DNA of 64,000 nt from NCBI GenBank assembly GCA_002694685.1, contig NZMW01000002.1, positions 1-64,000 on the forward strand, in the 5' to 3' direction. The stretch is from Balneola sp. (GTDB lineage Bacteria; Bacteroidota; Rhodothermia; Balneolales; Balneolaceae). Shown here in pieces: positions 9,704-39,901 of this stretch. The stretch's first letter is position 1. Each line of letters begins with the position of its first letter. The position numbers and the translations under genes were made by a program. The notes beneath the pieces are model-generated. The model did not search any database. It had not been told where the DNA came from and worked only from the letters and a program-made list of their open reading frames with translations.

Positions 9704-9706
9704 ATC

Positions 9707-16972: not shown

Positions 16973-19538
<2,566 letters not shown>

Positions 19539-19565
19539 TCGTCTTAACACTTATTAGTTATTAGA

Positions 19566-19741: not shown

Positions 19742-19749
19742 TATATTTG
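19742..19749 (+). promoter_or_regulatory. Bacteroidota-type -7 element upstream of the DUF4384 gene
   Basis: TATATTTG matches the TAnnTTTG -7 consensus of Bacteroidota promoters, 44 bp before the ATG at 19793. A TTTG lies upstream at 19712-19715, but the spacing is longer than usual, so only the -7 element is convincing. Confidence 0.35.
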
Positions 19750-19792
19750 TTAGGGTATTTGCAGGGAAATTTTTGGGTACAAATTAAGCTTT

Positions 19793-21355: not shown

Positions 21356-21365
21356 GTATAAACTT

Positions 21366-24257
21366 ATGAATTTTTTGAACACACTAAGAAAGTCAGTACT
21401 GCTAATTGGGGGTATGTTAGTAGCTCAGTCATTAATGGCACAGTCTCAACAAAAGCCAATATTAAGGCTAAACACCGAGATGCATATGTCCAGTATCGTT
21501 AGCATAGATACCGATGCTGAAGGGCGCTATATGCTAACCGGCGCGAGTGACAAAACTGCTAAACTTTGGGATGCAGCCTCAGGTCATTTTTTAAAAACCT
21601 TTCGAATCCCAATTGGTGATGGCCAAGAAGGGATGATTTATGCGAGTGCAATTTCTCCGGATGGCAGTAAAGTAGCCATCGCCGGGAACACAGGCTGGAG
21701 CTGGTATGGGGAAACATCCATATATATTTATGATGTTGAGAGTGCTGAAATGGTTGAGCGTATTGGTGGTCTCACTAATTTGGTACTGGACGTAGAATTC
21801 TCACAGGACGGGAAATACCTTGCAGCATCTCTTGCCGGACCCAATGGGGTATTTGTATATGATGCCAATAATTATCAGTTAGTATCTTCTTTATTAGACC
21901 ACAATGACAGTTCTTACAATGTTGAATTCGATCAAGAAAACCGATTGGCAACGGTTTCTTATGATGGATATGTACGGATTTATAATTCTTCATTTGAATT
22001 GGAAGCAGAGGAAATGCCTACGGGAGGGCAACTTCCTTTTTCACTTTCATTTTCACCGGATGGACAGAAACTGGCTGTTGGCTATAATCAATCACCTGTG
22101 ATTCAGGTACTGAACGGAAAAACGTTAGCGCCTCTCTATGAACCCGACATCACAAAGGCAAATACACAGACTGATCGCTTATTTAATCTGGCTTTCTCAA
22201 AGGATGGGCAATCACTGTATGCAGGAGGAGTTTATCAGAGTGTTTATGATGGAAAGTGGAAGCAGGTGATGCGTAAGTGGAGTAACGGAGGACAGGGCAG
22301 TTACGTAGATATTCCCGTTGGCTCCAATACGATTATGGATGTAAAAGCACACCCGAAAGGCGGAGTTGTTTTTGCGGGAAGTGCACCTGAATTTGGTACA
22401 GTCAATGCGGATGATGAGCTGGGTATTTATCATAAAGGAGAAATTAATAGTTATAGAGCTCCAGATAATTCCCACTTCAAATTAAATGAAACGGGAGATG
22501 AAGTTGGTTTTACTCCATTTCGCGGGGAACCTCTGACATTTTCTGTGTTAAATAAAAGTCTTATTCCAGATGAGTCTGGCAGCCCAAGTTATAGTGCTTC
22601 AGCTACAGGGGTAAAAATTGAAAATTGGGAAACCTCTGAGATGGTATCTGTAAACGGTCAACTCTTGCAAATTTTTGAGCAGTATGAGCGAACTTATAGT
22701 GTGGATGTACTCAATGAAAATGCAGTAGTTCTGGGCGCAGATTGGAATATATACAGTGTTGACAACTCAGGTAATAAAAAATGGAATACTTCCATTCAAA
22801 GCCCTGCTTTTGCGATCAAGATTGCAGGAAATGGAAAGATGGTAGTTGCGGCACATGGAGATGGAACCATTCGGTGGTATAGAATGGAAGACGGTGAGCC
22901 ATTGCTGTCGCTATTTGTACATCCTGACAATAAAAGATGGATTACATGGACCCCCGGAGGCTACTATGATGCATCACCGGGAGCTGAAGAGTTGATCGGT
23001 TGGTATATGAATAACGGGCTGAACGATGCGGCCAGCTTTTACCCAATAGATCGGTTTTTTGAAACGTATTATCGTCCGGATTTAATAAAAGAAGTGATAC
23101 TAAGAAATGAGACGGATGACTTGATTACTGAGGCAGCCGGTTTTGAAACGTATAGAGAGTTTGAACAACCGCCATTGGTGGAATTTGTTTCACCGGAAGC
23201 CGGAACAAAGCTTTCACGAGAACAGGTAACGATAAAAGCCAAAGTCACTGACCAGGGTGGAGGGATAGATGAGGTACGGCTCTACCATAATGGGAAATTA
23301 GTGAATTCTGATACCCGTGGGTTTAAAATAGCCGGCGGAGATAACATCACTGAAAAAGAATTCAATGTTGCTTTGCTTCCGGGGACAAACAGTTTCAGAC
23401 TCACAGCCTTTAACTCCGAAAGAATCGAATCTAACCCGGTAGAATTGGAGCTGGACTATTCGGGGGCGGTAGCTACTTCAGATTTATATGTCCTAGCCAT
23501 AGGTGTTAATGAGTATAAGAATGCGTCCATGAATTTAAATTATGGAAAACCGGATGCGGAGTCTTTTGTAGAAACCGTTCAGCAGAAAGGATCATCCATT
23601 TTTAAATCTATAAACGTAACTACGCTTTATGATGGAAAAGCTAACAAAAAGAACGTGGAGAAAGCTTTTCAGGAAATTATTAAAAAGGCTAAACCTGAAG
23701 ATGCTTTTCTATTCTTTTATGCCGGTCATGGGGTTATGAGCGAACCGATGGAAGGCAAAGAAGAAGATTTCTATATGGCTTTGCATGATGTAGTAAGACT
23801 ATATGGTGATAATGAAGGGCTTGAAAAAAATGGGATCTCAGCTGATCAGATCACCGGACTTTCCAAACAAATAAAGGCACGAAAACAAATGATTGTACTG
23901 GACGCGTGCCAAAGTGGTGGAGCCGTGGAGACCTTCAGTATGCGTGGGGCAACCGAACAAAAAGCGATTCTGCAATTAGCCAGAAGCGCAGGTTTAGTGG
24001 TAATGGCCTCAACGGGAACCGAACAATATGCAACGGAATTTCAAGCCTTGGGGCATGGAGTTTTTACCTATGCACTCTTGCAAGGAATGCAGGGAGGTGC
24101 CGATGGAGGTCTTAAAGACGGTAAGATCACCGTTAAGGAATTGGACGCTTTTATTAACGACCAGGTTCCGGTTCTTACGCAAAAGCACAAGGGTCAGGCT
24201 CAATACCCAAATAGTTATTCAAGAGGGCAAGACTTCCCTATTGTGATAGTTAACTGA
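21366..24257 (+). CDS. Exported WD40-repeat caspase-like peptidase (C14)
   Basis: A 963-residue protein with a signal peptide (1-25), an N-terminal WD40-type beta-propeller (about 30-560; for example ASDKTAKLWDAASGHFLKTF), an Ig-like segment (about 590-700) and a C-terminal caspase/metacaspase domain (about 710-955). The catalytic dyad is intact: H788 in YAGHG and C848 in LDACQSG. It should cleave after basic or acidic residues as a cysteine protease, but the substrate is unknown and export is unusual for caspase-like proteins. It follows the DUF4384 gene by 10 nt, so they form an operon. Confidence 0.88.
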   Translation: MNFLNTLRKSVLLIGGMLVAQSLMAQSQQKPILRLNTEMHMSSIVSIDTDAEGRYMLTGASDKTAKLWDAASGHFLKTFRIPIGDGQEGMIYASAISPDGSKVAIAGNTGWSWYGETSIYIYDVESAEMVERIGGLTNLVLDVEFSQDGKYLAASLAGPNGVFVYDANNYQLVSSLLDHNDSSYNVEFDQENRLATVSYDGYVRIYNSSFELEAEEMPTGGQLPFSLSFSPDGQKLAVGYNQSPVIQVLNGKTLAPLYEPDITKANTQTDRLFNLAFSKDGQSLYAGGVYQSVYDGKWKQVMRKWSNGGQGSYVDIPVGSNTIMDVKAHPKGGVVFAGSAPEFGTVNADDELGIYHKGEINSYRAPDNSHFKLNETGDEVGFTPFRGEPLTFSVLNKSLIPDESGSPSYSASATGVKIENWETSEMVSVNGQLLQIFEQYERTYSVDVLNENAVVLGADWNIYSVDNSGNKKWNTSIQSPAFAIKIAGNGKMVVAAHGDGTIRWYRMEDGEPLLSLFVHPDNKRWITWTPGGYYDASPGAEELIGWYMNNGLNDAASFYPIDRFFETYYRPDLIKEVILRNETDDLITEAAGFETYREFEQPPLVEFVSPEAGTKLSREQVTIKAKVTDQGGGIDEVRLYHNGKLVNSDTRGFKIAGGDNITEKEFNVALLPGTNSFRLTAFNSERIESNPVELELDYSGAVATSDLYVLAIGVNEYKNASMNLNYGKPDAESFVETVQQKGSSIFKSINVTTLYDGKANKKNVEKAFQEIIKKAKPEDAFLFFYAGHGVMSEPMEGKEEDFYMALHDVVRLYGDNEGLEKNGISADQITGLSKQIKARKQMIVLDACQSGGAVETFSMRGATEQKAILQLARSAGLVVMASTGTEQYATEFQALGHGVFTYALLQGMQGGADGGLKDGKITVKELDAFINDQVPVLTQKHKGQAQYPNSYSRGQDFPIVIVN

Positions 24258-24284
24258 TTTGAGATTAAAGTTCATTATCTCAAA
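24258..24284. terminator. Inverted repeat between convergent genes
   Basis: TTTGAGAT (24258-24265) and ATCTCAAA (24277-24284) are perfect complements, sitting just past the caspase gene and 22 bp before the end of the opposite gene. No strong T-run, so only a weak or bidirectional terminator. Confidence 0.4.
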
Positions 24285-24305
24285 CGACTTTCATGCTAAT
24301 CAAAA

Positions 24306-26399
24306 CTAAAACAGGTTGATTTGATGAAGTAGGATAGCCGTTCTCAAAATTGAGATCTCAATAACTCTGGTTTCAATTTTGTCACCGGTAAATTCTATTT
24401 CGTACGGACCTTCGAGAAGTTGATAGTCAAAACGGCGTCTTCGTTGAAATTCATCAACCAACACATTGCCGCCTTCATCAGTAATCTTTATGTTGAAATT
24501 ATTGACGTTGGTTTTAAACCGTACTTTTCCTTCGAAGGCAAATTCTTCAGCAAAAGCGAGTTCCGTAGTATCTGGTGCTGGGGGTTCTATTTCACCAGCT
24601 TCTATAGCCCGTTCAACTTCTTCAACTTCTTCCTGCTCCTGACGAGACATAATCCGAACAGTCATAACATTCAGTCTTTGTAAGTAAAGAGGCTGGGTAC
24701 TTGAAAAATCATCAATAACAGAAGTACCCCGAATGCTCAGGTCTGTTGTAATTCTCTGCATTCCTTGCTCCCAATCTGTTTTAAAGGGGATGCGAATATT
24801 GGTACTGTCAATTATCTCGATGAAATTGGCAAGCAATTCAAGATTTGTGAAGGTAAAGGTTTGATTAGCGATCCATTCATTGGCGATTTCAGAATTGATC
24901 AGGCTGATGTCATTTGTTTCCAATTCAATCTGTAGCAGCCCCTGATCCTTTGGCATAGACTTAGTGAGGCTGAGATTACTGTTATCAACCCGAGTTCTAA
25001 CATCAGTAAGCTGAGCTTCAAGCCTGCGTGGTTTGGGGGCAACTTCGGCACTAACTTCAGTAAAATTGATTTCCACTGTCATAACATTTAAGCGCTTTAA
25101 GACAAGAGCTTGGTCACTTCGAAAACTGTCAATTACAGGAGTCCCCAAAAATTTAAGTTCGGTTGAAACCTCAGGCAATCCATCGTATGGTTCAACTTTA
25201 AAGGGAATGCGGATGTTTTTGTCGTCAATGATTTCAATGAAATCAGTAAGGAGTTCGAGATTTGAAAGTGATAACTTCTCCTCATGAATCCACTGCCTTA
25301 TTTTGTCGGTATTGGCAAGATCAAGTTTGTTGGTTTCTAACTCAATTTGAAGCAAGCCTTGGTTCTCAGGCATAGATTTGGTTAAGCTCAAATTGCTGTT
25401 ATCAACCCTTGTGCGAACTTCGGTGAGCCGAGCCTCAAGCCGGGTTGTTTTTGGAGCAGCAATTTCACCAAAAGGATTGGCATCTGTTTTCGGATTTTGC
25501 CAGGTTCGGTTCACAAGTTTTGGTGATCCCGATTCAAAATCCCATATCATAAAGATGTAGCCTGTATCAGCATAAGAAGGAGTTTGGTAATACTGCTTGG
25601 CGTTATAGCCAAAAGAGTTCGGGTAATCCGGGTGGCGTAGAATTTTTTCATCTTCATACTTGATCCCCACGGTATTGTAGGAAGTTAAAACACGCTCTTC
25701 TAAGCGTGTCATATACTCCTCATAGGTATACCGATCATAATCTACCAAGCCATCACTTTCTCTAATGGATCCGGCAATTATGGCTGATTCTACTGTAAAT
25801 AAATTTCTTACGGCTTCAACATCTTTGTCTTCGAAAGCTTTTATATAGGACTCAACTGCAGATTTAACTATGGCTGATTCTTCCTCATCAGCCAAAGAGG
25901 ATCGCCTGACAATACGATCTATATTTTGATGCTTATCAATAATTATAGCATCAATTAGCTCACCTTCTTCAGAAAAAGTGAACTTTAATTCCTCATAAGA
26001 AAACTCATTCCCATCAATTGGCTTAAGGTAGATTCTGGGAACTTCATAGGTATTATTCTGGGTAGTAATTACATAGGTATTAATCTCCTGAAGGTTAGAG
26101 ATGAATTGATTTTCTTCAACCAAAGCTTTTAAAGCAGCTTGTCCTTCACTGTTTTGAAACTCATCAACTTGGTCGTTGGTGAATTTGTTTATCGAGACCA
26201 GTAGTGTTTGAATAGTTTGCTCCAACTGCTCATTAAATTCCGGTGGCTGTCCGGATGTAATATTAATGACCGGTTCAGTTTCAACATTTTGACCTATCAA
26301 TTGCTGGTTTGATATCAACAGAAGAAAGAAAGTGAAACCGAATACTTTACGTGAAAAATTATATACCCTACTTTTATATAAACGAAATATTAAATGCAT
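24306..26399 (-). CDS. Exported protein with NTF2-like domain and duplicated beta modules
   Basis: A 697-residue protein of unknown function with an N-terminal signal sequence (hydrophobic about 18-36). Around residues 180-310 is an NTF2/SnoaL-like stretch (AVESYIKAFEDKDVEAVRNLF). Two tandem modules follow (about 320-455 and 457-580) that share 36 nearly identical residues starting RLEA.LT.VRTRVDNSNLSL, then RIPFK and RLNVMTV. The C-terminal end is a PEGA-like beta segment (KFNVNNFNIKITDEGGNVL style). The gene is convergent with the caspase gene, with 48 bp between stops. A functional link is possible but unproven. Confidence 0.65.
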   Translation of the reverse strand: MHLIFRLYKSRVYNFSRKVFGFTFFLLLISNQQLIGQNVETEPVINITSGQPPEFNEQLEQTIQTLLVSINKFTNDQVDEFQNSEGQAALKALVEENQFISNLQEINTYVITTQNNTYEVPRIYLKPIDGNEFSYEELKFTFSEEGELIDAIIIDKHQNIDRIVRRSSLADEEESAIVKSAVESYIKAFEDKDVEAVRNLFTVESAIIAGSIRESDGLVDYDRYTYEEYMTRLEERVLTSYNTVGIKYEDEKILRHPDYPNSFGYNAKQYYQTPSYADTGYIFMIWDFESGSPKLVNRTWQNPKTDANPFGEIAAPKTTRLEARLTEVRTRVDNSNLSLTKSMPENQGLLQIELETNKLDLANTDKIRQWIHEEKLSLSNLELLTDFIEIIDDKNIRIPFKVEPYDGLPEVSTELKFLGTPVIDSFRSDQALVLKRLNVMTVEINFTEVSAEVAPKPRRLEAQLTDVRTRVDNSNLSLTKSMPKDQGLLQIELETNDISLINSEIANEWIANQTFTFTNLELLANFIEIIDSTNIRIPFKTDWEQGMQRITTDLSIRGTSVIDDFSSTQPLYLQRLNVMTVRIMSRQEQEEVEEVERAIEAGEIEPPAPDTTELAFAEEFAFEGKVRFKTNVNNFNIKITDEGGNVLVDEFQRRRRFDYQLLEGPYEIEFTGDKIETRVIEISILRTAILLHQINLF

Positions 26400-26604
26400 A
26401 ACCCTACGTATTTATTTTATTGTCCCCGTTAATTGTAGCTAAATTTCTACCCAAGCTCACAGCATAGCTATGCGGAACATATTGTACAGGTAAGCTATTA
26501 CCCCGAAATTATTTTAATATGATAAAACCTAAGTGTACCCTTTTGTTTAGCTTAGGGCATGTTAATAAAGAAGAGTGATATTGTCAAAGAGAGATATAGC
26601 TTGC

Positions 26605-26832
26605 TTACCCCTTGGCTTGGCACAGCTCTACCAAAACCCCATGATTGTCTTTAGGGTGAACAAAGGCCACTAATTTATTATCTGCGCCGTCTTTGGGTTG
26701 TTCATTAAGGATGGTGAACCCTTCTTTTCGCAAACGATCTAATTCGGAATAGATATCATCTACTTCAAAGGCAACATGATGAATACCCTCGCCTTTTCGG
26801 TTAACATATTTTGCGATAACAGAATCAGGAGC
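26605..26832 (-). pseudogene. Truncated methylmalonyl-CoA epimerase remnant (C-terminal half)
   Basis: The minus strand encodes an uninterrupted C-terminal half of the vicinal-oxygen-chelate epimerase: VIAKYVNRKGEGIHHVAFEV, then LRKEGFTILNEQPK and KDNHGVLVELCQAKG, ending in TAA. It matches the complete copy at 33193-33588 residue for residue over most of its length, but the DNA has clearly diverged. The first 60 or so residues, including the first metal ligand, are missing and there is no start codon. It is a broken gene at the left border of the sugar island. Confidence 0.85.
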
Positions 26833-26971
26833 AATAGGCCTCGGCAGCAGCGACGGTTTTATTAGATATCAGCTATTTTTGGAAGCAAAATATACTTAGC
26901 TTTGAATACCAGCGAACCCGCGATAACTATAATTATTTATTTACCAATTTTATGGGTAGATATAATCCATA

Positions 26972-26998
26972 CCCATATGATATAGGGCACCATATGGG
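26972..26998. promoter_or_regulatory. Inverted repeat upstream of the glycosyltransferase genes
   Basis: CCCATATG and CATATGGG, 11 bp apart, about 130 bp before the first glycosyltransferase ATG. It could be an operator; there is no T-run to suggest a terminator. Confidence 0.3.
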
Positions 26999-27128
26999 GT
27001 TAGGGGAAATTATTATTTCGATAATTCTGAAGATAAAGTTAATGGTCATGGCAATATTTCACTTCGTTAAAATTTTTAGTTCTTTTATCCAAAGTGCTAT
27101 TTTTTAATAAGAAACAACTAGCTAGAAA

Positions 27129-27881
27129 ATGATGAATTGGATTAAAAAGAAATACTATCAAGCAATTTCCGCTGAAGAAGGTAACCTATACAGTAACAGT
27201 GATGGCTGCACCCTGATTTTGTCATCTTTTAAAAGGCCAAAGAATGTTAAAAAAATTTTAGCTGCCTATATGGATTATGCACTTCTGGATGAAATAATTA
27301 TTTGGCATAATGGGCCTGAGAAATTGGATATTGGAGCTTTTGATGAGGATGTTAAAATTATTGAAAGTAATGACCTGGGGCTTGCTTCAAGATATGCTGC
27401 AGGGCTATTAGCCTCAAATGACATAGTTCTCCTTCAAGACGATGATATCTTTTTTGAAGAAGAAAGTTTAAGAATAATTGTGAATGAAAGTATAAAAAAT
27501 CCGGAAAGAACAATAACTTCAGAAGGGAAAATACCACATAAGGATAACACTTATGGAAAGGGCATTAAGCCAGGCATTGGGGAAAAAATTGAATGCGAAA
27601 TTCATTTAAACAGGCTTGTTTGTACCAAACGTGAGTTTATCCCGCATTTTTTTTCAACACTATATAAAACCGGGCTATCCTTAAATCCAAGAACGGGTGG
27701 TGGAGAAGATATTGTTTATAGCTACGCAATTACCAATTTCACTGGAAAAAAGCCGTTAGCAGTAGGTGTTAGTTATAAAAACCTTTCTTCTAAAGAAGCA
27801 ATATCTGACAGGTATGGAAATCAACATGCTAACAGAACTGATATAATGAAAATTTGTAAACAGCTCTTTGAAGAAAGTTAA
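27129..27881 (+). CDS. Glycosyltransferase, GT2/GT64-like
   Basis: A 250-residue cytoplasmic GT-A fold transferase. The start is family-like (CTLILSSFKRPKNVKKIL), followed by IIIWHNGPE and the metal-binding acid cluster VLLQDDDIFFEEE (a DxD equivalent) near residue 100. Late residues TGGGEDIVYSYAI contain the usual ED acid pair. It resembles the EXTL/GT64-type domain more than classic GT2. It probably adds a sugar to a surface glycan. It begins a run of three plus-strand glycosyltransferase genes. Low GC compared with flanking housekeeping genes. Confidence 0.75.
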   Translation: MMNWIKKKYYQAISAEEGNLYSNSDGCTLILSSFKRPKNVKKILAAYMDYALLDEIIIWHNGPEKLDIGAFDEDVKIIESNDLGLASRYAAGLLASNDIVLLQDDDIFFEEESLRIIVNESIKNPERTITSEGKIPHKDNTYGKGIKPGIGEKIECEIHLNRLVCTKREFIPHFFSTLYKTGLSLNPRTGGGEDIVYSYAITNFTGKKPLAVGVSYKNLSSKEAISDRYGNQHANRTDIMKICKQLFEES

Positions 27882-27951
27882 CCAGAAGGACATATATCAA
27901 CTACTAATTCTTAGAACTTGTATATTTATTTAGGGGAATATTAGTTAGAAA

Positions 27952-29121
27952 TTGAAAAACGCCTCAACTACAAAAGTGATTATATTACTTCCATCTCTTG
28001 CTGGAGGTGGGGCTGAGAGAACTGTATTAAACCTGTTGAAAACTTATGATAGAAATAAATTTACCATCAAAGTTTTACTAATAAGTAGCGAAGGCTCATA
28101 TTCTTCATCGTTCAATAAGGCTGATTTAATCTACAGTACATCTGATTTCTTTAGAAATAATTTTTTTTGGCAACTCTGTTTCTTTGTTTTTAAGATTATG
28201 CCTTTCCATCTAAATAGCCTGAAATCTGAGAAACCAGATGTGGTAATGACGGTAACAGAGAGTATGAATTATTATGGCTATTTTTTAAAAGCTATTGGTG
28301 TCATTAACGGCATATGGATTATACGAAGTGGTAATAATATTTTTGCTGAAGCAAGATCAAAAGGTTTTGTTTTTGGCAATATTTTGCAATTTCTGTTAAA
28401 AATAACTTATCACCGTGCAGATCATGTAATCGCAATTAGCAATGGCGGTAAAAAATCTATCCTTAACAGATTTAAGATCTCTGGAAAAAAAATTACTACA
28501 ATCTATAATCCAATTGATCTGAAAAAAATAGAATCCTTGGCTTCTTCAGTTAATCATTTAGAATTGAAAAAACCGTTTTTACTTGGCATAGGGAGGCTTG
28601 CTAAACAGAAAAGATTTGATAAAATGATTCGAGCCTTCTACGAAAGTAATGCCTATAAAAAAGGTTATTTACTGGTTATTCTTGGTCAAGGGCCACAGCA
28701 AAAGAATCTTCAAAAGCTGGTTGATGATTTATCTTTGAATGCTAGTGTGAAGTTCATGGGTTTTCAAGATAATCCTTATGTCTATTTAAGACATGCTGAA
28801 TGCTTCTTGTTATCATCTGATTGGGAAGGATTTGCCCATGTATTAGCTGAAGCACTGGCCTGTGATACAGAAGTAATTACCACCAACTGTGACTTTGGGC
28901 CCGCTGAAATTCTTTCAGACGGCAGGTATGGAACAATTCTTGAGGGTTCTGATCCCGTGTTATTTGGGAAAGCAATTAAACAGTTTCTTGAAGATAGAGG
29001 GCTGAATATACATACAGATAAAAATCAAAGAGCATCAGATTTTGATGTAATTGTAATTATTCCACAATACGAAGAACTCTTTACTGAACTCGCATCATCC
29101 TCGAATGGAGAAAAAACATAA
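27952..29121 (+). CDS. Glycosyltransferase family 4
   Basis: A 389-residue GT-B fold transferase. The N-terminus has the glycine-rich acceptor loop LPSLAGGGAERTVLNLL, and the C-terminal half carries LLGIGRLAKQKRFDKMI and the E-x7-E motif in WEGFAHVLAEALAC, which holds the nucleotide sugar. It uses retaining chemistry by family. The start is TTG at 27952, because no upstream ATG exists and the family N-terminus begins at once; an AGGGGA lies about 15 nt before it. It overlaps the next glycosyltransferase by 17 nt, so the genes are co-transcribed. Confidence 0.85.
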   Translation: MKNASTTKVIILLPSLAGGGAERTVLNLLKTYDRNKFTIKVLLISSEGSYSSSFNKADLIYSTSDFFRNNFFWQLCFFVFKIMPFHLNSLKSEKPDVVMTVTESMNYYGYFLKAIGVINGIWIIRSGNNIFAEARSKGFVFGNILQFLLKITYHRADHVIAISNGGKKSILNRFKISGKKITTIYNPIDLKKIESLASSVNHLELKKPFLLGIGRLAKQKRFDKMIRAFYESNAYKKGYLLVILGQGPQQKNLQKLVDDLSLNASVKFMGFQDNPYVYLRHAECFLLSSDWEGFAHVLAEALACDTEVITTNCDFGPAEILSDGRYGTILEGSDPVLFGKAIKQFLEDRGLNIHTDKNQRASDFDVIVIIPQYEELFTELASSSNGEKT

Positions 29122-30112
29122 ACTTACGGTAGTTACTTACGCTGATCAAAAATTAGAACCATCCAATGTACTTGTAGAGTCTTGCAATAAGCTTGGGCTG
29201 AAACTGGAAGTGCTTATTCATTCTACATGGAATGCGAACTCATTAAAAATCAAAGTTCTATATGATTTTTTACAAACAAAAAAAACTGATCAAATAATTC
29301 TTTTTGTTGATGCTTTTGATGTCCTGATACAAGAGAATGAACAAACGATACTCAAAAAATTTAATTCTCTAAATACAGATATACTTTTTTCTGGTGAAGC
29401 AAATTTCTCTTTTTATGACTCAACATTATATAAAGAATATTGGAGAATATACCCAAGAGGAGAAACCGTATTTGATTATGTAAATGCAGGGTCTTGTATC
29501 GGTAAAGTATCTGATTTAAGATTAATGCTTAATAAAATGATAAAGGATTACAAGATTCCAATAGAAAGAGAAGCTGAACTAACAAAAATTAAAAGCGATC
29601 AACATTTTTTTCATAGGTTTTACGTAGATAATTTTTATAAATCTGAGAATTATTTGGTCGCAAAAATTGATAGAAATCAACTCATTTTAGGCTGTACAGG
29701 AGGAAGAATGACTGCCAAAACTTTTTCTGAATACTCTAAAGTTCAGTCTTATTATCGCTTCAGAATTGAACGTCAGATACTAAAATTTCTGAACTTACAT
29801 AGATTTCAAAATGAGCCTAAAGATTATGTTGTAGAAGATGGAGCTTTCATTCAAAAAGAAACTCAAACCAAACCAAGTGTTGTGCACTTACCCGGCACGT
29901 GGGCTTCTTTTGATGAAATTTTAGATAATCTTTTATCAAAAAACACACAAAATCGGCGGAAGCCATGGAAACAGAAACTTGCTGTTTTTATCAGCTTTAT
30001 AAGTCAGGTAGTATCCATTATTTTCTCCCTTTTCATTAGCCTTCCATCTGTGAAACTGCAAAACAAAGAGAAACAGAGAAGAGCATCGGTCATAAGAGAC
30101 CTTAAAAATTAA
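29105..30112 (+). CDS. PLOD-type glycosyltransferase
   Basis: A 335-residue protein. The first 230 residues match the glycosyltransferase domain of procollagen lysyl hydroxylase/galactosyltransferase (PLOD) type: TVVTYADQKLEPSN, IILFVDAFDVLI (the DxD motif), FSGEANFSFYD, YVNAGSCIGKV and the later SDQHFFHRFY. The remaining third includes a hydrophobic helix near 300-315 and a basic tail, perhaps for membrane association. It starts inside the end of the GT4 gene (17-nt overlap). Predicted to glycosylate an exported glycan or protein; the acceptor is unknown. Confidence 0.75.
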   Translation: MEKKHKLTVVTYADQKLEPSNVLVESCNKLGLKLEVLIHSTWNANSLKIKVLYDFLQTKKTDQIILFVDAFDVLIQENEQTILKKFNSLNTDILFSGEANFSFYDSTLYKEYWRIYPRGETVFDYVNAGSCIGKVSDLRLMLNKMIKDYKIPIEREAELTKIKSDQHFFHRFYVDNFYKSENYLVAKIDRNQLILGCTGGRMTAKTFSEYSKVQSYYRFRIERQILKFLNLHRFQNEPKDYVVEDGAFIQKETQTKPSVVHLPGTWASFDEILDNLLSKNTQNRRKPWKQKLAVFISFISQVVSIIFSLFISLPSVKLQNKEKQRRASVIRDLKN

Positions 30113-30225
30113 GATTATTATACTTTTAAGTTTATGAAAGTAAAGTAAGAATTGCCAGATTTAAGCTATATTACTCAGGGCAAACGTCTCAGTTTTAAGC
30201 TACTTGTTAAACTGTTTACAGTAAC

Positions 30226-31041
30226 TTATACAGCCAGAAAAATACTCTGGAATTTTTTGCTTCCTAGATGTTATAAAGAGCCTGAAATACTTTTTAGAAG
30301 AATACGGACTACGCCATTTTTCGTTATAGGGTTCAGTGTTATTAATAACATTTCTTTCTCAATAAATTGCAGAGCATTCAGCGGCTTGTTCTTTCTGTAG
30401 GTTTTGTTATGAACTGCATGTAATTTTCCTGCAAGAATTAGGTTTAATACCCAGGCTCACCGCTCGGTCGTTGTAATTAGCATCTTCGCCATAGCGGAAA
30501 AAGTATGGATGAAAAACTCCCACAGTTTCCACTACTTGTCTACTCAATATCCAAAGTGCTACATTCACAAATTCAACTTCATAGGATTCTTTTAAGTTAC
30601 CTGCCTTAAAATCCTCCCGGAATAATTTATGGTCTTTGCGGTTTTGTTAAAAGAATTTAGAAATTTGTAAATCAAGAACTTTTTTAGAGTCATCAAAGTG
30701 AACAGGTGAAATAATTACCCTGTCACTAAACTTCTGAGACATTCGAATTAATTCTCCCACAGTGTTTTCTTTTATTCGGGTATCTTGGTTCACAAAAAAT
30801 ATTCAAAACCCTCCAAATAGGCCTTTTTTAAAGCCAGATTATTTGCTTTTCCAAAGCCTAAATTTTCTATCAAATAAATCTCTTCAAAAGACATCAAAAT
30901 TGTTAACGTATTGTCCGTAGACCTATTATAAACAATGGTAATACCTTCTCAACAGGCTTTTAATAAATTCTTCAATGTAATTTTTTGTCCACTGCATGTT
31001 ACAATAATCGCGCAAACAGAAGCATCTTTATTACGTACCAT
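30226..31041 (-). pseudogene. Decayed GT2 family glycosyltransferase
   Basis: On the minus strand a GT2 sequence can be followed from an ATG at 31041 (SVCAIIVTCSGQKITLKNLL) through ENLGFGKANNLALKKAY, FVNQDTRIKENTVGELI and YFFRYGEDANYNDRAVSLGIK to the C-terminal HNKTYRKNKPLNALQFIEKE. It is broken by an in-frame TGA (30949-30951), a lost T in the run at 30794-30799, a TAA (30647-30649), a frameshift at an A-run near 30424-30427 and a further TAA (30271-30273). The length of 272 codons is close to normal. It is a dead relative of the adjacent sugar-transfer genes. A short open frame on the other strand here (30152-30400) is only its antisense. Confidence 0.8.
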
Positions 31042-31113
31042 AGTTTTTTTTAATTCTTACTTAAAGAGGGCTCTAAGGTTATTATATATATGACATATAG
31101 CAACTAAATTTTT

Positions 31114-32730
31114 TTAAGACATCTTGACACTTTCAATTTGCCCGTTTCTCAGCGTAATAAGCTGGTCTGCTATGGAATAATATTTATCGTCATGTGATAT
31201 TAGAATTACCGTTTTTCCTTCCTTTTTAAGTCTCGGAATTATTTCAAGATAAAATTTCTCCTTAAAATGAACGTCTTGGTTGGCAGCCCATTCATCTAAT
31301 ACATAAATTGATTTGTCTTCTAATAATAATCGCATCAAATTAAGCCTGCTTTTTTGGCCAAAAGAAAGATTGAAATCACTGATTCTGAAAAAAGACAGAT
31401 TAGTTTTTCCTGTAAGCTCTAATTCATCAATGTAAGCATCTGAGTTTTCGAACTTGTTCTCTGGTATGTATGATATGTCATCAAAAACAGGTGAATCTGT
31501 GAAATGACAACAAAGCTCATTCCGATAAAATTGAATATTATCAAGAGACAGGGTTTGTCCTTTATATTTTACCTTTCCTTTGTCTGGTTGAAATAAACCC
31601 ACAATAATGTTGAAAAGGGTTGTTTTACCGCTACCATTACCACCTTTAATAATCACAATCTCATTTTCGTATATTACTGTATTTATAGGTCCAATTTTGA
31701 ATTCAGATTCATTCTCTCCATAAAAATATTCTACATTTTTTAAAGAAATTATTGGTGCACTATTATTTTCATTGTTAATAGGTTGATTCTTTAATGTAGG
31801 AATTGCATCCTCCAGATCTTTACTGAGTTCATTTATTTGCTCTATAGCATTTTCAACTTTTTTCAGTTCATTAAAAAAGACAATAATTTTAATGAATGAA
31901 GGCAAAATGAAAATCATTACCACAACAAATTGTGTGATAACTGGCTGGCTTAGTTCCACCCAATCCTGTCCCCCAAGAAAAAAAATACCTAAGCCAATTA
32001 GCACGATTGCTGTTATTAGTTGTTCCAAGACAATTTTAACAAGTTCAATCTTTGTATTCTCTTGAGCTAATCTATAATTCGGAGTGTGGATAGAATGATT
32101 TATGAAGTGATCACCATGCTCCCTGTTAATAGATAAATTTTTATACCCTAAGTTGAATAACTCAAACTTGGTATGAAGTTTTGTGCGGTTAATTGATCTC
32201 TCTCTTTCAAAACGTTTTTGCATAGGCAATGCTACAATCATAACACAGGTAATAAGTAAAAAAAGTGTCAAAACCATGGTAGCTAGTTGCCAAGACAGAT
32301 AAAACATATATGCAAATACTACCAGTGTTTGAGTAATAGCTACAACAAGACCTGGAAGGTTTTTCCCGAACTTACGAACTTCAGCTACTTCAAACTGTAG
32401 TACAGGAGCGATACGATTCAAGCGATCTTTTATAGCATCATAAGGTCTTCGTAGAATATTACGTGAAATGCTTTCTCTACACTCAATCAATATTTGTTCA
32501 AAATGCCATGTAATCTTTTTCCCTACAATAGTACTAATCAGTAAGGCTGTAATAATTTGACTAGCAATTAACCCAAAGTAGAAGAGTTTATTATCTTGAT
32601 CTGCAACTACTAGTTCCTTAAAAAAATTTAAGCTCGAGAGATTCAGTCCGGCAACTACTAAGCTTGCTACTGAAGCAGCAAGTATTTGCTTCCGCGAAGA
32701 TTGGTAAAAAAATTGAAGTGCTTTATACAT
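31114..32730 (-). CDS. SyrD/PvdE-like ABC exporter (fused membrane and ATPase domains)
   Basis: A 538-residue half-transporter. Residues 1-290 contain about six membrane helices. The ATPase domain follows, with Walker A GGNGSGKTT near 360, signature LSFGQKSRL near 475 and Walker B YVLDEWAANQD. The DEWAxxQD form is typical of the cyclic-peptide/pyoverdine (SyrD, PvdE) exporter family. It should move a peptide-like or lipid-linked substrate outward. It faces away from the glycosyltransferase genes across the pseudogene; no peptide synthetase or precursor peptide is nearby, so the cargo is unknown. Confidence 0.85.
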   Translation of the reverse strand: MYKALQFFYQSSRKQILAASVASLVVAGLNLSSLNFFKELVVADQDNKLFYFGLIASQIITALLISTIVGKKITWHFEQILIECRESISRNILRRPYDAIKDRLNRIAPVLQFEVAEVRKFGKNLPGLVVAITQTLVVFAYMFYLSWQLATMVLTLFLLITCVMIVALPMQKRFERERSINRTKLHTKFELFNLGYKNLSINREHGDHFINHSIHTPNYRLAQENTKIELVKIVLEQLITAIVLIGLGIFFLGGQDWVELSQPVITQFVVVMIFILPSFIKIIVFFNELKKVENAIEQINELSKDLEDAIPTLKNQPINNENNSAPIISLKNVEYFYGENESEFKIGPINTVIYENEIVIIKGGNGSGKTTLFNIIVGLFQPDKGKVKYKGQTLSLDNIQFYRNELCCHFTDSPVFDDISYIPENKFENSDAYIDELELTGKTNLSFFRISDFNLSFGQKSRLNLMRLLLEDKSIYVLDEWAANQDVHFKEKFYLEIIPRLKKEGKTVILISHDDKYYSIADQLITLRNGQIESVKMS

Positions 32731-33192
32731 TCTTATAATGGTAGAGTTTCGAGATTAAGTTTTATTCAGGCCAATTTATGTCTGAGTATTAATCTGATTT
32801 GTTTGTCAGCATGATAATATAGGGCCCATTAATTATGTAAAGGTAACAATTTTTACCAGGCTAAAGTTAAGTCTCATTTAATTTTAACCCCATTTAAGCC
32901 TTACTTCGAGTATCCAAGGTTGGGATACGAAGATCATTATTTCTACTATTATATTTAATGTGTCTGGAGAGCCTAGCTCTCAGGATATTGAACATCAGCT
33001 AGAGCTTATAATTTTATTGGAATACGTAATAATTATTTATTCTGGGACATGTGGCCTCTATTAGAGTCACGTATGAACCTCTCTCTGCGTTAATCCTTTT
33101 AAATCTATGAGAAAAAGTTCTCCTCCCTTAGATTGTTTTTTCGAGATTTTCAACCACAAGAAAGGGGGGCAAGATTTCAGGAATTATTGACC
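32731..33192. other. Gap between ABC exporter and epimerase
   Basis: About 460 bp without a supported gene. A short perfect palindrome GAGAGC-CTA-GCTCTC lies at 32967-32981. The left part should contain the ABC promoter. The right part follows the epimerase stop; I see no clear terminator. This is the right border zone of the sugar island. Confidence 0.45.
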
Positions 33193-33588
33193 CTATCTAC
33201 TCTGACACAACTCTACTAATACACCGTGATTATCTTTTGGCTGGACAAATGCAACCAACTTTTTATCGGCTCCTTTTTTGGGCTGTTTATTGAGTATGGT
33301 AAATCCTTCTTTTTTAAGCCGGGCCAGTTCTTGATGTATATCCTCCACCTCAAAAGCTACATGATGTAATCCTTCTCCATTTTTCTTGACATATTTTGCT
33401 ATAACAGAGTCATCAGTCGTAGCACCTAAAAGTTCCACTTTAGATTCCCCGGTTTGAAAGAACACGGTTTCAACTTTTTCACTTTCAACTGTCTCACTTT
33501 TAGTGGGAGAGGCATTAAGGATTTTGGAGTAGGTCTCCGTTGCTGCTTTAATGTCTTTTACGGCAATGCCGATATGATCGATATGCAT
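33193..33588 (-). CDS. mce: Methylmalonyl-CoA epimerase
   Basis: A 131-residue enzyme of the vicinal-oxygen-chelate fold. It inverts (R)- and (S)-methylmalonyl-CoA in the propionate/succinate route. The two halves each supply metal ligands: HIDHIGIAV at the N-terminus and GLHHVAFEV and VLVEL in the second half. The length is typical (about 130-140). It is a single gene; the mutase genes are not in the window. A second, 5'-truncated and diverged copy lies at 26605-26832, on the other side of the glycosyltransferase island. Confidence 0.92.
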   Translation of the reverse strand: MHIDHIGIAVKDIKAATETYSKILNASPTKSETVESEKVETVFFQTGESKVELLGATTDDSVIAKYVKKNGEGLHHVAFEVEDIHQELARLKKEGFTILNKQPKKGADKKLVAFVQPKDNHGVLVELCQSR

Positions 33589-33715: not shown

Positions 33716-35026
33716 TTATTCAAGTGAATTAATGAGTCGCTGAAATAAATCACTGCTCGTATTGCCGTTTCCTAAATTCAATTCGCTGATTTGCTTATTA
33801 ACAGCTGTAATTCGCTTTTCAAGCTTTAGGCCATTCCATTCTGTAATTGATTCTGAAGGATTTTCGAAGCGCTGAAGTCTTTCAAGATATTTAACGGCTT
33901 CATTCGGATTATATCCGGAAAGGTATGTATAGATGATGCCCCAGTAGTCAGCCTCAAATTCATATTCTTCCAAACGCTCACTATTTATAGCATCATAAAA
34001 GCCATCCCCCATATCAGTGAGTCGTTGCTCACTCGTTCTTTCCTCTTCAGTAGCTTGGTCTTCGGCATTATTGGCTGCCAATTTACGACGCATTTCTTCC
34101 AGCATGCTTTCCTGTTTGATGCGTGGCTCTTGCTCCAGATACTCAACTATTCCATGTCCAAAAACCAGGTGAGCAACTTCATGGGCTATAAAATGAACCA
34201 GCTCTGCCTCTGTCTGCATCTGCTTGAGAGCTCCCTTTGAGATAAAGATATAGTTTCCGGGAAGGGAATACCCTTGAATATCTTCCACATCAAGAATGAG
34301 AATACTGAAATCCAACTCAGGGCGGTGGCTATTTTCTACTACCAATCCTGAAATAAGATCAAGGTATCGCTGAAGTGGATAGTTGCTGACCAAGCCTTTT
34401 TGAGCAACTGCACTTGCCACAGCATATCCAACCTGATCGATAGAAGGGTTGGGGTATGGAATATAGATAGCACGTGGATACAGCATTCTTCTTTGCTGAT
34501 AGTCATTCATGGGGCGGTCACGAACTCCAATAAAGTTCTGAAATTCAGTAGGTGAAGCCGGTTCAATTAGGTATCGCTCAAAATTGACGGAATATTCCAG
34601 GCCACGTGTACGAGCCCATTTTTCAGAAAATCCTTTTACAGCAGCCGAAACCTGGGCAGGAGAAGCTGTCAGGTCTTCTTCAGTTACTGGGTCATCGTTG
34701 TTAAGCTGTGAAAACATCAGCCCCATACGTTGTTGCATGGAGTCCGACTCAAGTTCATCAGAGCTGATTTGAGCTTCGGAAAGCGTATAGCTTGGCAACC
34801 AGCCTCTTGTGTCTTTAAACCAAACACGATTCCAATACCCCTCGGTTGAATCCAGTTCAACTTTATTATTGATGTAAAGTCTTAGAAGGAATTCATGATA
34901 GGCTGCCGGACCTTCTCTAAGGTCAGCTGTTTGATTCGTGTACCTTGTTTGTGCAATTCCTGACTGGCTAAAGATAACTGTGCTTAATAGCAGCACCCCA
35001 AAAATAGAAAGTATTGTTTTCATCAT
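33716..35026 (-). CDS. Exported M48-family metallopeptidase with SH3-like domain
   Basis: A 436-residue exported protein. Signal peptide at 1-25, then a bacterial SH3-like domain (about 27-85; TADLREGPAAYHEFLLRLY), a linker, and an M48 zinc peptidase domain with HEVAH near 285 and the downstream ADYWGIIYT segment (third ligand). Such proteins act in the periplasm or at the outer membrane as quality-control proteases. Its ATG overlaps the stop of the upstream cyclase (ATGA), so the genes are translationally coupled, linking a signalling cyclase to a peptidase. Confidence 0.85.
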   Translation of the reverse strand: MMKTILSIFGVLLLSTVIFSQSGIAQTRYTNQTADLREGPAAYHEFLLRLYINNKVELDSTEGYWNRVWFKDTRGWLPSYTLSEAQISSDELESDSMQQRMGLMFSQLNNDDPVTEEDLTASPAQVSAAVKGFSEKWARTRGLEYSVNFERYLIEPASPTEFQNFIGVRDRPMNDYQQRRMLYPRAIYIPYPNPSIDQVGYAVASAVAQKGLVSNYPLQRYLDLISGLVVENSHRPELDFSILILDVEDIQGYSLPGNYIFISKGALKQMQTEAELVHFIAHEVAHLVFGHGIVEYLEQEPRIKQESMLEEMRRKLAANNAEDQATEEERTSEQRLTDMGDGFYDAINSERLEEYEFEADYWGIIYTYLSGYNPNEAVKYLERLQRFENPSESITEWNGLKLEKRITAVNKQISELNLGNGNTSSDLFQRLINSLE

Positions 35027-37197
35027 TTATTTGTTTGTTGATAGCTTCCTTCCCAGTTTTCCCCGGGCGGATTCTTTTTAAATACCTCGATGTTCTTTAA
35101 ATAAATACGGCAAAGCATGTCCCCGTCTTTCATTTCCAGTGCTTTTTGGAAATTAACTTCTGCCTCTTCCCATTCCCGATTATAATACTGATTTAAACCT
35201 TTATGGAAAAGTTCAACAAAAGGGGCCCATTTTGCATGCTCAGTATCATCATTCTCACAAACCAGCTCAAAAATACGGATGGGTTTTGTTTTACCTTTTG
35301 CCTTCATCAAAGCAACTTCACGGGTCAGCATACGGTCTTTAACTTGTAGCTGTGTACTTTCAGAGATCAAAATCCGGGTACCAAAATCTTTGTTGGCGGG
35401 TTCAAGTCGTGCACCTAAATTCACATTATCGCCTAATACGGTATAGCTAAAGCGATCTTTAGAGCCCATGTTACCAACAACCATCGGCCCTGAATTTAAC
35501 CCATAACGAACATGCGGTGCGGGTAAGTCATCTCCACTCCATTTAGCTTGTAGCTCCTGGAGCTTATCCTCCATTTCGAGCACACATTTACAGGCAAGGT
35601 AGGCATGTTCTTCGGTTGGCACGGGAGCTCCCCAAAAAGCCATAATAGCATCACCGATATACTTATCCAGGGTGCCTTTATTTCTGAAAACAATATCAGT
35701 CATTTCACTCAGGTACTCATTCAGAAAAGTAACGAGTTCTTCAGGAGGCATATCTTCCGAAATAGAAGTAAAACCAGCCAAGTCACTAAACAGTACAGTT
35801 AGTTCTTTCTTTTCGCCTCCTAACTTTAGCAACTCGGGCGATTCAATAATTTGTTCGACCAGCTCTTTTTGAAGGTATAAGTCAAACGCGCTTCGGATAG
35901 CACGTTTTTGGGCATCTTCACTGACATATTTTGTGGTATAACCAACAATGATGACTAACAATGAGGAAAGGAAAATTTCGGCAGTAGGGAACCAGACCCG
36001 ATATACACTGAATAGCAGTAACCCTATAACTACAATTGATCCCATTACTACCGCAGAAACAGAAATATTGACTCGGGAAGGAGTCCAGAAAATAGCAGCA
36101 AGCAGCAGGGCACAAATAATTAGAATCAGGATATTCTTAACAAGGTTAGGAACCGATGTGATGAAGTCGTTTTCTAATAAATTATTGGCAACCGCAGCAT
36201 GTATTTCTACACCGGGGAAGGGCTCTATGGGACTCATCGGGGTTGATTTGATGTCGGATAAACCGGCTGCACTTGCCCCTATGAAAACAATTTTATCCTG
36301 TAATTCAATTAATGAATCTGCATTGGTGGTTCCTGTTTGCCGAAACTGCAAACCGGCTTTAAACAACCCATAAATTGGATAGGTGCGGAAGGAGCCATCA
36401 TTCACCCCACCTTGCTTGTACCAATTAATCAGATAATTTCCATCATCTTGTAAAGGGATTTCCAGGGAGTCAACGTGAAGGGCATTGCCTTTCTCTTCTA
36501 GAGTCAGGTTTTGAGGATTGGTGTATCCTAAGTAAGCAGCAACACCAAGTGACGGGATTGCTTTTTCTTCGGTTAAATTGAAGAAAAGCGGAACCGATCG
36601 AATAATAGATTCATTTTGTGTGGGAATCTGAACAGACCCAAGCTTATGAGCCGTCTTTAGAAATCGAGGAATGGGAACGTTAGAAACACTATAAAGCTGG
36701 TGTTGATCTTCAATATTTATGGGATAGGTAAAACGGTCTAATTTGCCAGATTCATAGGCTGAATCAGATTCTAAAGTTTGAATAGAAAGTACTGAGTTTT
36801 GGTAGGTGCCAAACATCTGTTCAAGGAAAAGATCACTCATCCATCCTGACATGCCCCTTCGGTCAAAATCTGGTTGATCAAAAAGCACATCATAAACAAC
36901 AAGCCGTACACCTTTTGCCATTAGGTAATTATGTACGGTTCCATACACTTCACGAGGCCAAGGCCAGTAAATACCGTGATTTTCCACAAAGTCATCCAGA
37001 CTTTTTTGGTCAATCATAGCAAGCGAAACACGCTCTTTGGGAACGTCCCGATCAAAAGTTCTAAACTTTTGGTCCAAAAGAGAGTACTCAATAGGGTTAA
37101 AAAAACCGGAATATTGAAGGGCAAAAAGAGAGCTCATCACCCCAACAAACACTAAACCGATGAGCGTACCTTTTGATAGTTTTTTGCTTTTTTTCAT
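35023..37197 (-). CDS. CHASE2-domain class III adenylate/guanylate cyclase
   Basis: A 724-residue membrane receptor cyclase. After an N-terminal helix (about 10-30) comes an extracellular CHASE2 domain (about 35-340; RVSLAMIDQKSLDDF and VFIGASAAGLSDIKSTP), then three membrane helices (about 350-425) and a class III cyclase domain (about 455-640) with the metal-binding Asp in LFSDLAGFTS and the second in DKYIGDAIMAFWG. The C-terminus has a TPR-like segment. It would make cAMP (or cGMP) in response to an external signal. It is the first gene of a two-gene operon with the M48 peptidase; both start and stop overlap. Confidence 0.92.
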   Translation of the reverse strand: MKKSKKLSKGTLIGLVFVGVMSSLFALQYSGFFNPIEYSLLDQKFRTFDRDVPKERVSLAMIDQKSLDDFVENHGIYWPWPREVYGTVHNYLMAKGVRLVVYDVLFDQPDFDRRGMSGWMSDLFLEQMFGTYQNSVLSIQTLESDSAYESGKLDRFTYPINIEDQHQLYSVSNVPIPRFLKTAHKLGSVQIPTQNESIIRSVPLFFNLTEEKAIPSLGVAAYLGYTNPQNLTLEEKGNALHVDSLEIPLQDDGNYLINWYKQGGVNDGSFRTYPIYGLFKAGLQFRQTGTTNADSLIELQDKIVFIGASAAGLSDIKSTPMSPIEPFPGVEIHAAVANNLLENDFITSVPNLVKNILILIICALLLAAIFWTPSRVNISVSAVVMGSIVVIGLLLFSVYRVWFPTAEIFLSSLLVIIVGYTTKYVSEDAQKRAIRSAFDLYLQKELVEQIIESPELLKLGGEKKELTVLFSDLAGFTSISEDMPPEELVTFLNEYLSEMTDIVFRNKGTLDKYIGDAIMAFWGAPVPTEEHAYLACKCVLEMEDKLQELQAKWSGDDLPAPHVRYGLNSGPMVVGNMGSKDRFSYTVLGDNVNLGARLEPANKDFGTRILISESTQLQVKDRMLTREVALMKAKGKTKPIRIFELVCENDDTEHAKWAPFVELFHKGLNQYYNREWEEAEVNFQKALEMKDGDMLCRIYLKNIEVFKKNPPGENWEGSYQQTNK

Positions 37198-37384
37198 TTC
37201 TGTACCCGATTAATAGTAACCCTTAAGCAACTTTATAATAGTAAATAAACAGTACTCCTTCACTTTCTTATTTAGAAAATAAGCATGTTTTGAAGTGCGA
37301 CATTATATAATACATCTTAGAAATGCTTTATTTATCATTGCCTGTAAAGCTGTAAGAAGTAAAACGAACACAATATAAATATTT

Positions 37385-38470
37385 ATGGCACACCATAGAG
37401 TTAAATCTTCCGGCAAATATCCCTTTTGGCTTAAGTCGACCATTACCCTTATCGGGTTAAGCCTGCTTTTTGTGATCGTCAGCTACGCGAAGTTCATTTT
37501 GATGCCCCTGGCTTTTTCTGCCTTTTTTGCGATGCTTTTAAATCCATTGGTTCGGCTTTTTGAACGGTGGAAAGTAGGTCGTGCCTTTAGCATAATTCTG
37601 ACCCTTTTGGTTGTATTTATTGTTTTTACCGGAGTTATATCACTGATATCAGCACAGTTTGTACAATTTGCTGAACGAATCCCTGAGGTGACAGAAAAAC
37701 TTAAGACAGTATCAAACAGTGCTATTCAATATTTGGAGGAAACAGCAGGAATCTCACAAGAGGAGCAAAGTGAATACCTGCAACAGGGTATCAATAACCT
37801 CATTGACCAAAGCGGAAATTATGTGAGTTCTTTTTTAAGCGCTACCACCAATATTTTTACGGTTATGACGCTGATGCCCATCTTCGTCTTTTTCATGTTG
37901 TATTATCAGGAAATGTACAGGACGTTCTTCCAAAAGCTATTTACTTCAAGAAAAGAAGAGGGCTCCGGTGTTGATAAACTCTTAGATAACATTCAGGATG
38001 TAACTCAAAATTATTTGGTAGGAATGTTATCTGTAATCGGGATATTAGCAGTTTTAAACACCACCGGGCTTTTAATTATTGGCCTCGAACACGCCTTATT
38101 CTTCGGTGTTTTTGCTTCCTTGTTAGCCATCATCCCATATATTGGAATTATTATTGGGGCCCTGCCACCGTTACTTTTTGCCCTGTTGTTAACCGACTCT
38201 TTACTAACACCCGTCTTTGTGGTAGCGGTATTTGCGACGGTACAGTTTTTGGAAGGAAATTTTATCACCCCAAGAATTGTAGGATCTAAAGTTTCCATAA
38301 ACCCTTTTGTAGCTATGGTCGCATTGATAGTGGGAGGAGAGCTATGGGGTATTTCCGGGATGATTTTATTTGTACCACTCATCGGAATTTTAAAGGTCGT
38401 ATTTGATCAGATTCCGGAAATGAAGCCTTATGGATATTTATTAGGCAACAGTATTACCTATGAGAAATGA
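37385..38470 (+). CDS. AI-2E family transporter
   Basis: A 361-residue polytopic inner-membrane protein of the AI-2E (PerM-like) family. Two N-terminal helices, a periplasmic loop (about 75-150), then a run of helices with the family motifs FFMLYYQEM, PYIGIIIGALPPLLFALL and FLEGNFITPRIVG. Some family members export signalling molecules or act as Na+/H+ antiporters; the substrate here is not known. It overlaps the next gene by 4 nt (ATGA), so they are translated together. Confidence 0.9.
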   Translation: MAHHRVKSSGKYPFWLKSTITLIGLSLLFVIVSYAKFILMPLAFSAFFAMLLNPLVRLFERWKVGRAFSIILTLLVVFIVFTGVISLISAQFVQFAERIPEVTEKLKTVSNSAIQYLEETAGISQEEQSEYLQQGINNLIDQSGNYVSSFLSATTNIFTVMTLMPIFVFFMLYYQEMYRTFFQKLFTSRKEEGSGVDKLLDNIQDVTQNYLVGMLSVIGILAVLNTTGLLIIGLEHALFFGVFASLLAIIPYIGIIIGALPPLLFALLLTDSLLTPVFVVAVFATVQFLEGNFITPRIVGSKVSINPFVAMVALIVGGELWGISGMILFVPLIGILKVVFDQIPEMKPYGYLLGNSITYEK

Positions 38471-39249: not shown

Positions 39250-39250
39250 A

Positions 39251-39850: not shown

Positions 39851-39901
39851 GTATGTGGGTTCTAAGGGCGTTTATAATCTTAACTGTGTGAATGATGAAG
39901 T

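Follow-up and report, generated by a model that had tools for sequence, protein, structure and literature searches.

A tRNA-Pro(GGG) integration hotspot and a possible origin of the broken and intact methylmalonyl-CoA epimerase genes at its edge in a Balneolaceae genome

The window analysed here is the first 64 kb (64,000 nt) of contig C2 (NZMW01000002.1) in a 3.95-Mb genome of 17 contigs (G000), deposited as Balneola sp. and called here as a Gracilimonas-group member of the Balneolaceae. It carries two methylmalonyl-CoA epimerase (MCE) genes, a 3′ fragment and an intact copy, on either side of a segment of sugar genes. Comparison with relatives suggests that the locus is an integration hotspot between the conserved genes for MCE and a 425-aa cyclase, with tRNA-Pro(GGG) between them, and that the tRNA gene, not MCE, is the main insertion target. 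We propose, at a rough probability of 0.45, that the MCE pair is a by-product of this hotspot, formed via a crossover inside MCE. The coordinates of the features are collected in Table 1.

The MCE/tRNA-Pro(GGG) hotspot

Exactly one MCE was found in eight of nine same-genus genomes (G001–G008; hereafter congeners), and none was detected in the ninth, G009, which is 83% complete. Weak second matches in G004–G006 are 30–31% identical to frames of more than 380 aa and are not MCE. Two MCE copies in relatives without the sugar segment, which a preliminary description of the window had named as the finding that would speak against an insertion, were therefore not seen. Upstream of MCE, tblastn against the congener loci showed that the AI2E gene is shared in seven of the eight and the M48 peptidase gene in three. 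Because these neighbours are kept, the intact right-hand MCE is placed in the ancestral position, and the protein encoded by its 5′ half is 91–96% identical to five congeners and 84–88% to the other three. The earlier idea that the foreign DNA "brought or left" a working copy thus needs to be divided: the intact gene is not simply a brought-in replacement, but its 3′ half may be incoming.

Downstream, MCE is followed in G001, G005 and G007 by tRNA-Pro(GGG), beginning 51 bp past the end of the MCE match, and then by the cyclase gene (annotated at 456 aa in G007) and additional genes. The tRNA gene lies 0.2–5 kb downstream of MCE in G002 (on the opposite strand), G006, G004 and G003, making seven of the eight MCE-bearing congeners; the interval measures ~50 bp, 198 bp, 1.5 kb, 4 kb or 5 kb. 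Relatives thus differ in what they carry between one and the same pair of conserved genes, as hotspot exchange requires. The visible tRNA-Pro remnant in G008 is a mutated start only. Right before the intact tRNA-Pro of G003, ARAGORN reports a "tRNA-???" (L116:15319–15394) made of tRNA-Pro 5′ and 3′ parts with a different anticodon arm.

In G000, the cyclase and following genes are found on contig C11 from position 36366. The same contig holds the only near-identical full copy of tRNA-Pro (7013–7087; 6959–7087 with its promoter), flanked by two integrase genes, 5793–6908(−) and 7198–8355(+), which point away from the tRNA. The two integrases are 84% identical to each other and both contain PF00589 (5e-22 and 1.2e-21). 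A scan of the window for the tRNA-Pro start returned the displaced 5′ half listed in Table 1 as its sole match, where none was expected by chance, and a 55-nt copy of the tRNA 3′ part at C11:29121–29175 is 100% identical to part of C11:7013–7087. These landmarks delimit two islands. Island Q (C11:7088–29120) is contiguous, ~22 kb long, and contains an integrase, a type I methylase with its specificity gene and a bSEFIR protein; the tRNA fragment it displaced is the 3′ part. Island P, which displaced the 5′ half, begins in the window, and its other end, with the integrase and the intact tRNA, would be C11:1–6958; its cargo, including this C11 part, also comprises type III restriction-modification genes and an integrase. 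A tyrosine integrase lies inside both islands. An intact tRNA with a displaced fragment in the same orientation is seen for Q, while for P the orientation depends on a join between the two contigs.

The contig starts C2:1 and C11:1 probably face each other, because another family genome, G060, holds a similar element in one unbroken stretch. There, MCE is followed after 55 bp by a 52-nt tRNA 5′ fragment, a similar element end, homologues of island P (primase-like protein 34%, YqaJ 55%, a 210-aa protein 52%), an integrase 89% identical and a full tRNA-Pro. If the join is right, MCE and the cyclase gene of G000 would be separated by ~69.5 kb, of which 33.2 kb are on C2 and 36.4 kb on C11, in addition to any gap. 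The idea that a large inversion had parted MCE from the genes downstream of it was considered and rejected, as an insertion between C2:1 and C11:1 suffices and the contiguous G060 element supports it.

The family set comprises 92 Balneolaceae genomes including G000, and thus 91 others. Related integrases (E ≤ 1e-60) gave 11 matches in nine of the 92, two of them in G000; a full tRNA-Pro(GGG) lies alongside nine matches, a tRNA-Pro 3′ part alongside one and a tRNA-Gly alongside one. Displaced tRNA 5′ fragments follow MCE not only in G060 but also in G062 (49 nt, at a contig end), G057 (16 nt) and G058 (25 nt). The integrase is on the 3′ side of the tRNA in G110, G030, G027 and one G111 contig. 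G000 and, adjoining an integrase, another G111 contig were the only places where a displaced 3′ fragment was observed. Viral contigs scanned with the integrase and with the MCE fragment gave no relatives.

MCE remnants are not unique to G000. In the Balneola sp. isolate IP29b_bin.89 (G061), a degraded duplicate of the MCE tail (~81 nt; L040:10759–10838, 89%) lies 366 bp past the end of the MCE match, beyond tRNA-Pro, and represents an independent duplication in the same hotspot. It was the only convincing case in a scan for MCE repeats, the other matches among the 19 of 120 locus records with any match being short or weak; several genomes are represented twice in this set, and L003–L031 extend only ~1.5 kb beyond MCE. 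Two MCE matches, one of them short, were also found on contigs C357 and C321 of the fragmented genome G082, which could stem from a gene split between contigs, from a second copy or from contamination. In nine Flavobacteriia-type loci (L062, L068, L074, L080, L085, L087, L102, L104 and L108), a tRNA-Met lies 0.1–1.1 kb downstream of MCE; tRNA neighbours of MCE therefore recur outside the Balneolaceae.

The sugar segment and the block beside it

The preliminary description reported glycosyltransferases, a pseudogene and an ABC exporter between the MCE copies. We recovered three Pfam glycosyltransferase-type genes and the exporter, and the broken frame was judged by eye. The DNA between the copies looks foreign, as had been suggested, because its G+C content is low (0.329, compared with 0.397 for 12722–26604 and 0.414 for 33193–64000) and, across the 91 other family genomes with at most 15 candidates scored in each, the top match to the exporter is just 36% identical. 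In G030, which belongs to a different genus, the interval from MCE to tRNA-Pro carries a homologous sugar cassette with the exporter in a different place; the sugar genes are therefore cargo of the MCE/tRNA-Pro hotspot in at least two genera.

By itself, the segment is not classed as an integrase-driven island, because neither an integrase nor a tRNA fragment was found at its ends; the window scan found no tRNA-Pro start within it, and no second tRNA start lies near either MCE copy. Repeated sequence at the ends, which had been proposed as a check, was not found: apart from the MCE repeat itself, no repeat of ≥16 nt marks both ends of the segment. An exact attachment repeat within MCE was likewise rejected, as the repeat there is inexact. 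The view of a housekeeping gene as the insertion point is therefore only partly retained. MCE is a boundary gene of the tRNA-Pro hotspot and perhaps a crossover site, while the main target is tRNA-Pro(GGG).

Between the displaced tRNA 5′ half and the MCE fragment lies a block of near-host composition (Table 1), which also encodes a secreted repeat protein and a catalase-peroxidase, named by reading only. Its WD40-repeat protein with a C-terminal caspase domain (21366–24257) has partial matches of 30–37% in five of the nine congeners. The 697-aa protein has distant partial relatives only, with any match in 17 of the 92 genomes and a best identity of 33% outside its own genome; its gene contains an internal direct repeat (24658–25458; 66% over ~390 nt by BLAST) that is longer but weaker than the MCE repeat. 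The HEPN/RES-domain protein of island P (4571–5833) carries a toxin-like domain pair, and defence-type cargo on the C11 islands (type III restriction-modification, bSEFIR, type I methylase and specificity subunit) falls at L198:276–4944, L198:8384–9823 and L130:4129–6905.

Table 1. Features of the window discussed in the text (strand given where assigned)
Feature	Position	Strand	Remarks
Island P, left part	1–12621		HEPN-RES protein, YqaJ, DUF932, primase-like protein (Pfam)
Displaced tRNA-Pro(GGG) promoter and first 46 nt	12622–12721	−	Left attachment site of island P; 99% over 100 bp to C11:6959–7058
Block between tRNA 5′ half and MCE fragment	12722–26604		G+C 0.397; acyltransferase, DUF4384, WD40-caspase, 697-aa protein (Pfam)
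MCE 3′ fragment	26605–26832	−	C-terminal piece; 75 codons plus TAA stop (26605–26607)
Low-G+C sugar segment	26833–33192		Between the two MCE copies; G+C 0.329
Glycosyltransferase, GT64-like	27129–27881	+	Pfam PF09258, 1.4e-05
Glycosyltransferase group 1, GT4-like	27952–29121	+	Pfam PF00534; 41% identical to G030 hotspot gene
PLOD-type glycosyltransferase domain protein	29105–30112	+	Pfam PF25342; 34–37% to G030 hotspot gene
Broken frame, family-2 glycosyltransferase-like	~30420–31078	−	Several stops and frame changes; judged by eye from frames
ABC exporter, 538 aa	31114–32730	−	Pfam PF00005; 36–38% to 538-aa G030 hotspot exporter
Intact MCE	33193–33588	−	131 aa; Pfam Glyoxalase_4 and Glyoxalase
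Intact MCE, 3′ half	33193–33414	−	May be incoming (chimera)
Intact MCE, 5′ half	33415–33588	−	Looks resident
Conserved neighbourhood upstream of MCE	33716–41662		M48 peptidase (Pfam), cyclase, AI2E, 260-aa protein, flavin reductase-like, PolX (names by reading except M48)

The two MCE copies and their origin

As first described, a C-terminal MCE half lies on the left and a full but diverged copy on the right in the same orientation. The copies are 73% identical across 210 nt, the longest repeat family listed for 24–36 kb (the next is 129 nt), and agree at 21 of 24 nt at the start of the fragment; no third match was present in the genome at E ≤ 0.001. Codons 1–73 of the fragment align with MCE residues ~58–130, its homology begins abruptly at ~26832, and its frame is open with zero stops and zero frameshifts. 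Against the intact copy, dN is 0.147 and dS is not computable, with many silent changes. For comparison, 96 MCE sequences were kept once duplicates and partial matches had been removed; one of them, L001, is the intact copy itself and is not counted as a relative. The half-gene trees used 33 relatives from this set and the simulations 21.

The distribution of residues private to the intact MCE with respect to the eight congeners suggests a chimera with a resident 5′ half and an incoming 3′ half. Eight private residues fall in the 3′ half (columns 68–116) and none in the 5′ half; the fragment has four in the stretch where the intact 3′ half has eight, and the congeners themselves have 0–6 in the 5′ half and 1–3 in the 3′ half. 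With N and C denoting the private residues in the 5′ and 3′ half, respectively, simulations under one history gave N = 0 with C ≥ 8 in 7 of 1000 runs. In the protein trees, the end branch of the intact copy has length 0 for the 5′ half and 0.57 for the 3′ half (0.16 for the fragment); the corresponding DNA trees give 0.24 and 0.73. G+C at third codon positions (GC3) is 0.379 in the intact 5′ half, 0.301 in the 3′ half, 0.342 in the fragment and 0.24–0.27 in the sugar genes, so that the 3′ half is nearer to the sugar genes than the 5′ half is, a weak hint in the same direction. It is because of this 8-to-0 split, the long 3′ branch and the lean of GC3 that we favour a chimera, and the signal is suggestive only. 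Two replacements stand out in the intact 3′ half: the VHPKD motif has Q for a near-invariant H (91 of 95 rows), and K replaces a near-invariant N (87 of 95 rows; within 33193–33414).

The sequences support a hotspot in which tyrosine integrases of one family insert islands into the anticodon region of tRNA-Pro(GGG). Some islands displace the 5′ half of the tRNA and at least one the 3′ part, each supplying the missing part; islands therefore accumulate to the left and right of the tRNA. In the mechanism proposed for the MCE pair, incoming DNA with the 3′ half of a donor MCE and the sugar cassette would recombine with the resident gene at the conserved DSVIAKYV block, giving a working chimera, then the cassette, then the resident 3′ half displaced as a dead fragment. 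A possible route is a single crossover with circular DNA, or an exchange of hotspot alleles that was incomplete on the other side. The extra half-gene then looks like debris of island traffic. A more specific version, to which we give slightly less than even odds, has a single integrase family working in two polarities at tRNA-Pro: carriers of the promoter and 5′ half insert on the MCE side and carriers of the 3′ part on the other, sister integrases could build islands both ways because the anticodon stem is nearly palindromic, and exchange between arrays spills over into MCE, leaving the chimeric and half copies.

Several observations weigh against a crossover within MCE as part of such a hotspot. 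The difference alone is less extreme than the joint count, with C − N ≥ 8 in 57 of 1000 simulations. Among the 286 simulations with a total of 7–9, six had N = 0, and a Fisher test on congener-invariant columns gave p = 0.08. The halves of congener genes differ in GC3 by up to 0.19 (G003: 0.333 and 0.521), and at 72–77% the DNA identity of the intact 3′ half to the congeners lies inside their mutual 71–91%. No closer donor of this half was found among the 92 family genomes. The trees of both copies that had been called for were run on halves, and the poorly resolved 3′-half trees place neither copy; with 3′-half sequences, grouping both copies with the eight congeners in one clade is disfavoured (AU p = 0.039 for protein, 0.051 for DNA), compared with p = 0.37 and 0.31 for the 5′ half, which the fragment lacks. 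The DNA tree pairs the fragment with the Balneola-group sequence L042 (90/89, bootstrap not settled). At the level of the locus, the adjacency of C2 and C11 is not assembled, the genus-type MCE-tRNA spacer was not found after either MCE copy, no integrase was recognised among the four Pfam-scanned sugar-segment genes, and a 697-aa gene beside MCE was seen in no relative among the 92 genomes.

Since the GC3 hint is small relative to the congener spread and the trees do not favour a chimera, our confidence in it is kept modest, and an explanation in which the fragment is a passenger is a serious rival, to which we assign roughly one chance in three. Here, a relative would have donated to the hotspot a block with the MCE 3′ half, the 697-aa and caspase proteins and others towards the tRNA, and the intact MCE is wholly resident with a fast-evolving 3′ half. 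The pairing of the fragment with a Balneola-group MCE would fit, as would its protein being 90% identical to G001, G006 and G007 and equally to G025, of another genus code of the family; the merely partial congener matches of the WD40-caspase protein and the separate duplicated MCE tail in the G061 hotspot point the same way. The composition of the block is near that of the host, however, although its acyltransferase gene is low (0.346), and an imported passenger does not explain why the private residues of the intact MCE divide 8 to 0 between its halves.

With the fragment and the intact 3′ half equally oriented at the two ends, and a well-matching block at the fragment start, the arrangement also has the geometry of a dedicated integrative element for which MCE would serve as attachment gene and which brings a replacement 3′ half with it. 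An element that integrates into the 3′ part of a protein-coding gene is expected to encode an integrase and to be bounded on either side by identical attachment repeats; between the MCE copies, no integrase was recognised and no identical repeats were found. There is no second MCE in the eight MCE-bearing congeners, the 91 other family genomes show short second matches only (e.g. G061 and G082), and all 11 integrase-query matches adjoin a tRNA gene or tRNA part, which makes a dedicated element improbable. Alternatively, MCE may have been duplicated in tandem long ago, the pair being separated by the sugar segment and degraded afterwards. This would account for the shared orientation and neighbourhood of the copies, but we consider it very improbable given the single MCE of the congeners. 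Moreover, the fragment differs from the intact copy at 29% of its DNA, with many silent changes, yet its frame is still open, and it was therefore probably under selection until recently. A crossover inside MCE at the edge of the hotspot remains our preferred, if tentative, account of the pair.

Relation to known islands and significance

The locus appears to belong to a known kind, the arrays of tRNA-targeted islands. Islands P and Q resemble the tRNA/tmRNA islands collected in Islander (PMC4383910), as presented in the portions of that account considered here, in their tyrosine integrase, intact tRNA with a same-orientation fragment, anticodon-centred crossover and tandem arrangement; of 3919 islands there, 159 have 5′ fragments and 3760 have 3′ fragments. 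In G000, by contrast, two sister integrases flank one tRNA, with one island displacing its 5′ half and the other its 3′ part, and such a pair is not described in those portions. The sugar segment departs from Islander islands in that its ends carry no integrase and no tRNA fragment. A 2017 model of exchange through flanking core genes (PMC5635113) is, as outlined in its excerpted text, alike in placing variable DNA between the same conserved genes and in proposing recombination in a flanking core gene, here MCE; in our case a 3′ half of the flanking gene is left over, whereas no such remnant is expected from a clean double exchange. CGI48 at Shewanella tRNA-Trp (PMC8978831) is similarly a composite island at one tRNA locus and carries an island type that uses the protein-coding gene yicC, whereas its tRNA, host and cargo differ and the excerpted text of that report does not mention a partial copy of a flanking metabolic gene. 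Literature searches on Gracilimonas genomic islands, MCE genomic islands and tRNA-Pro in Balneola found nothing on the locus among the records listed.

The odd pair of a broken and an intact MCE may thus be explained as the edge of an MCE/tRNA-Pro hotspot that is common to several Balneolaceae and whose islands carry restriction systems and sugar genes. The locus offers a concrete case for asking how the traffic of tRNA islands can change the sequence of an adjacent metabolic gene, and how a single family of integrases can face both ways at the same tRNA.

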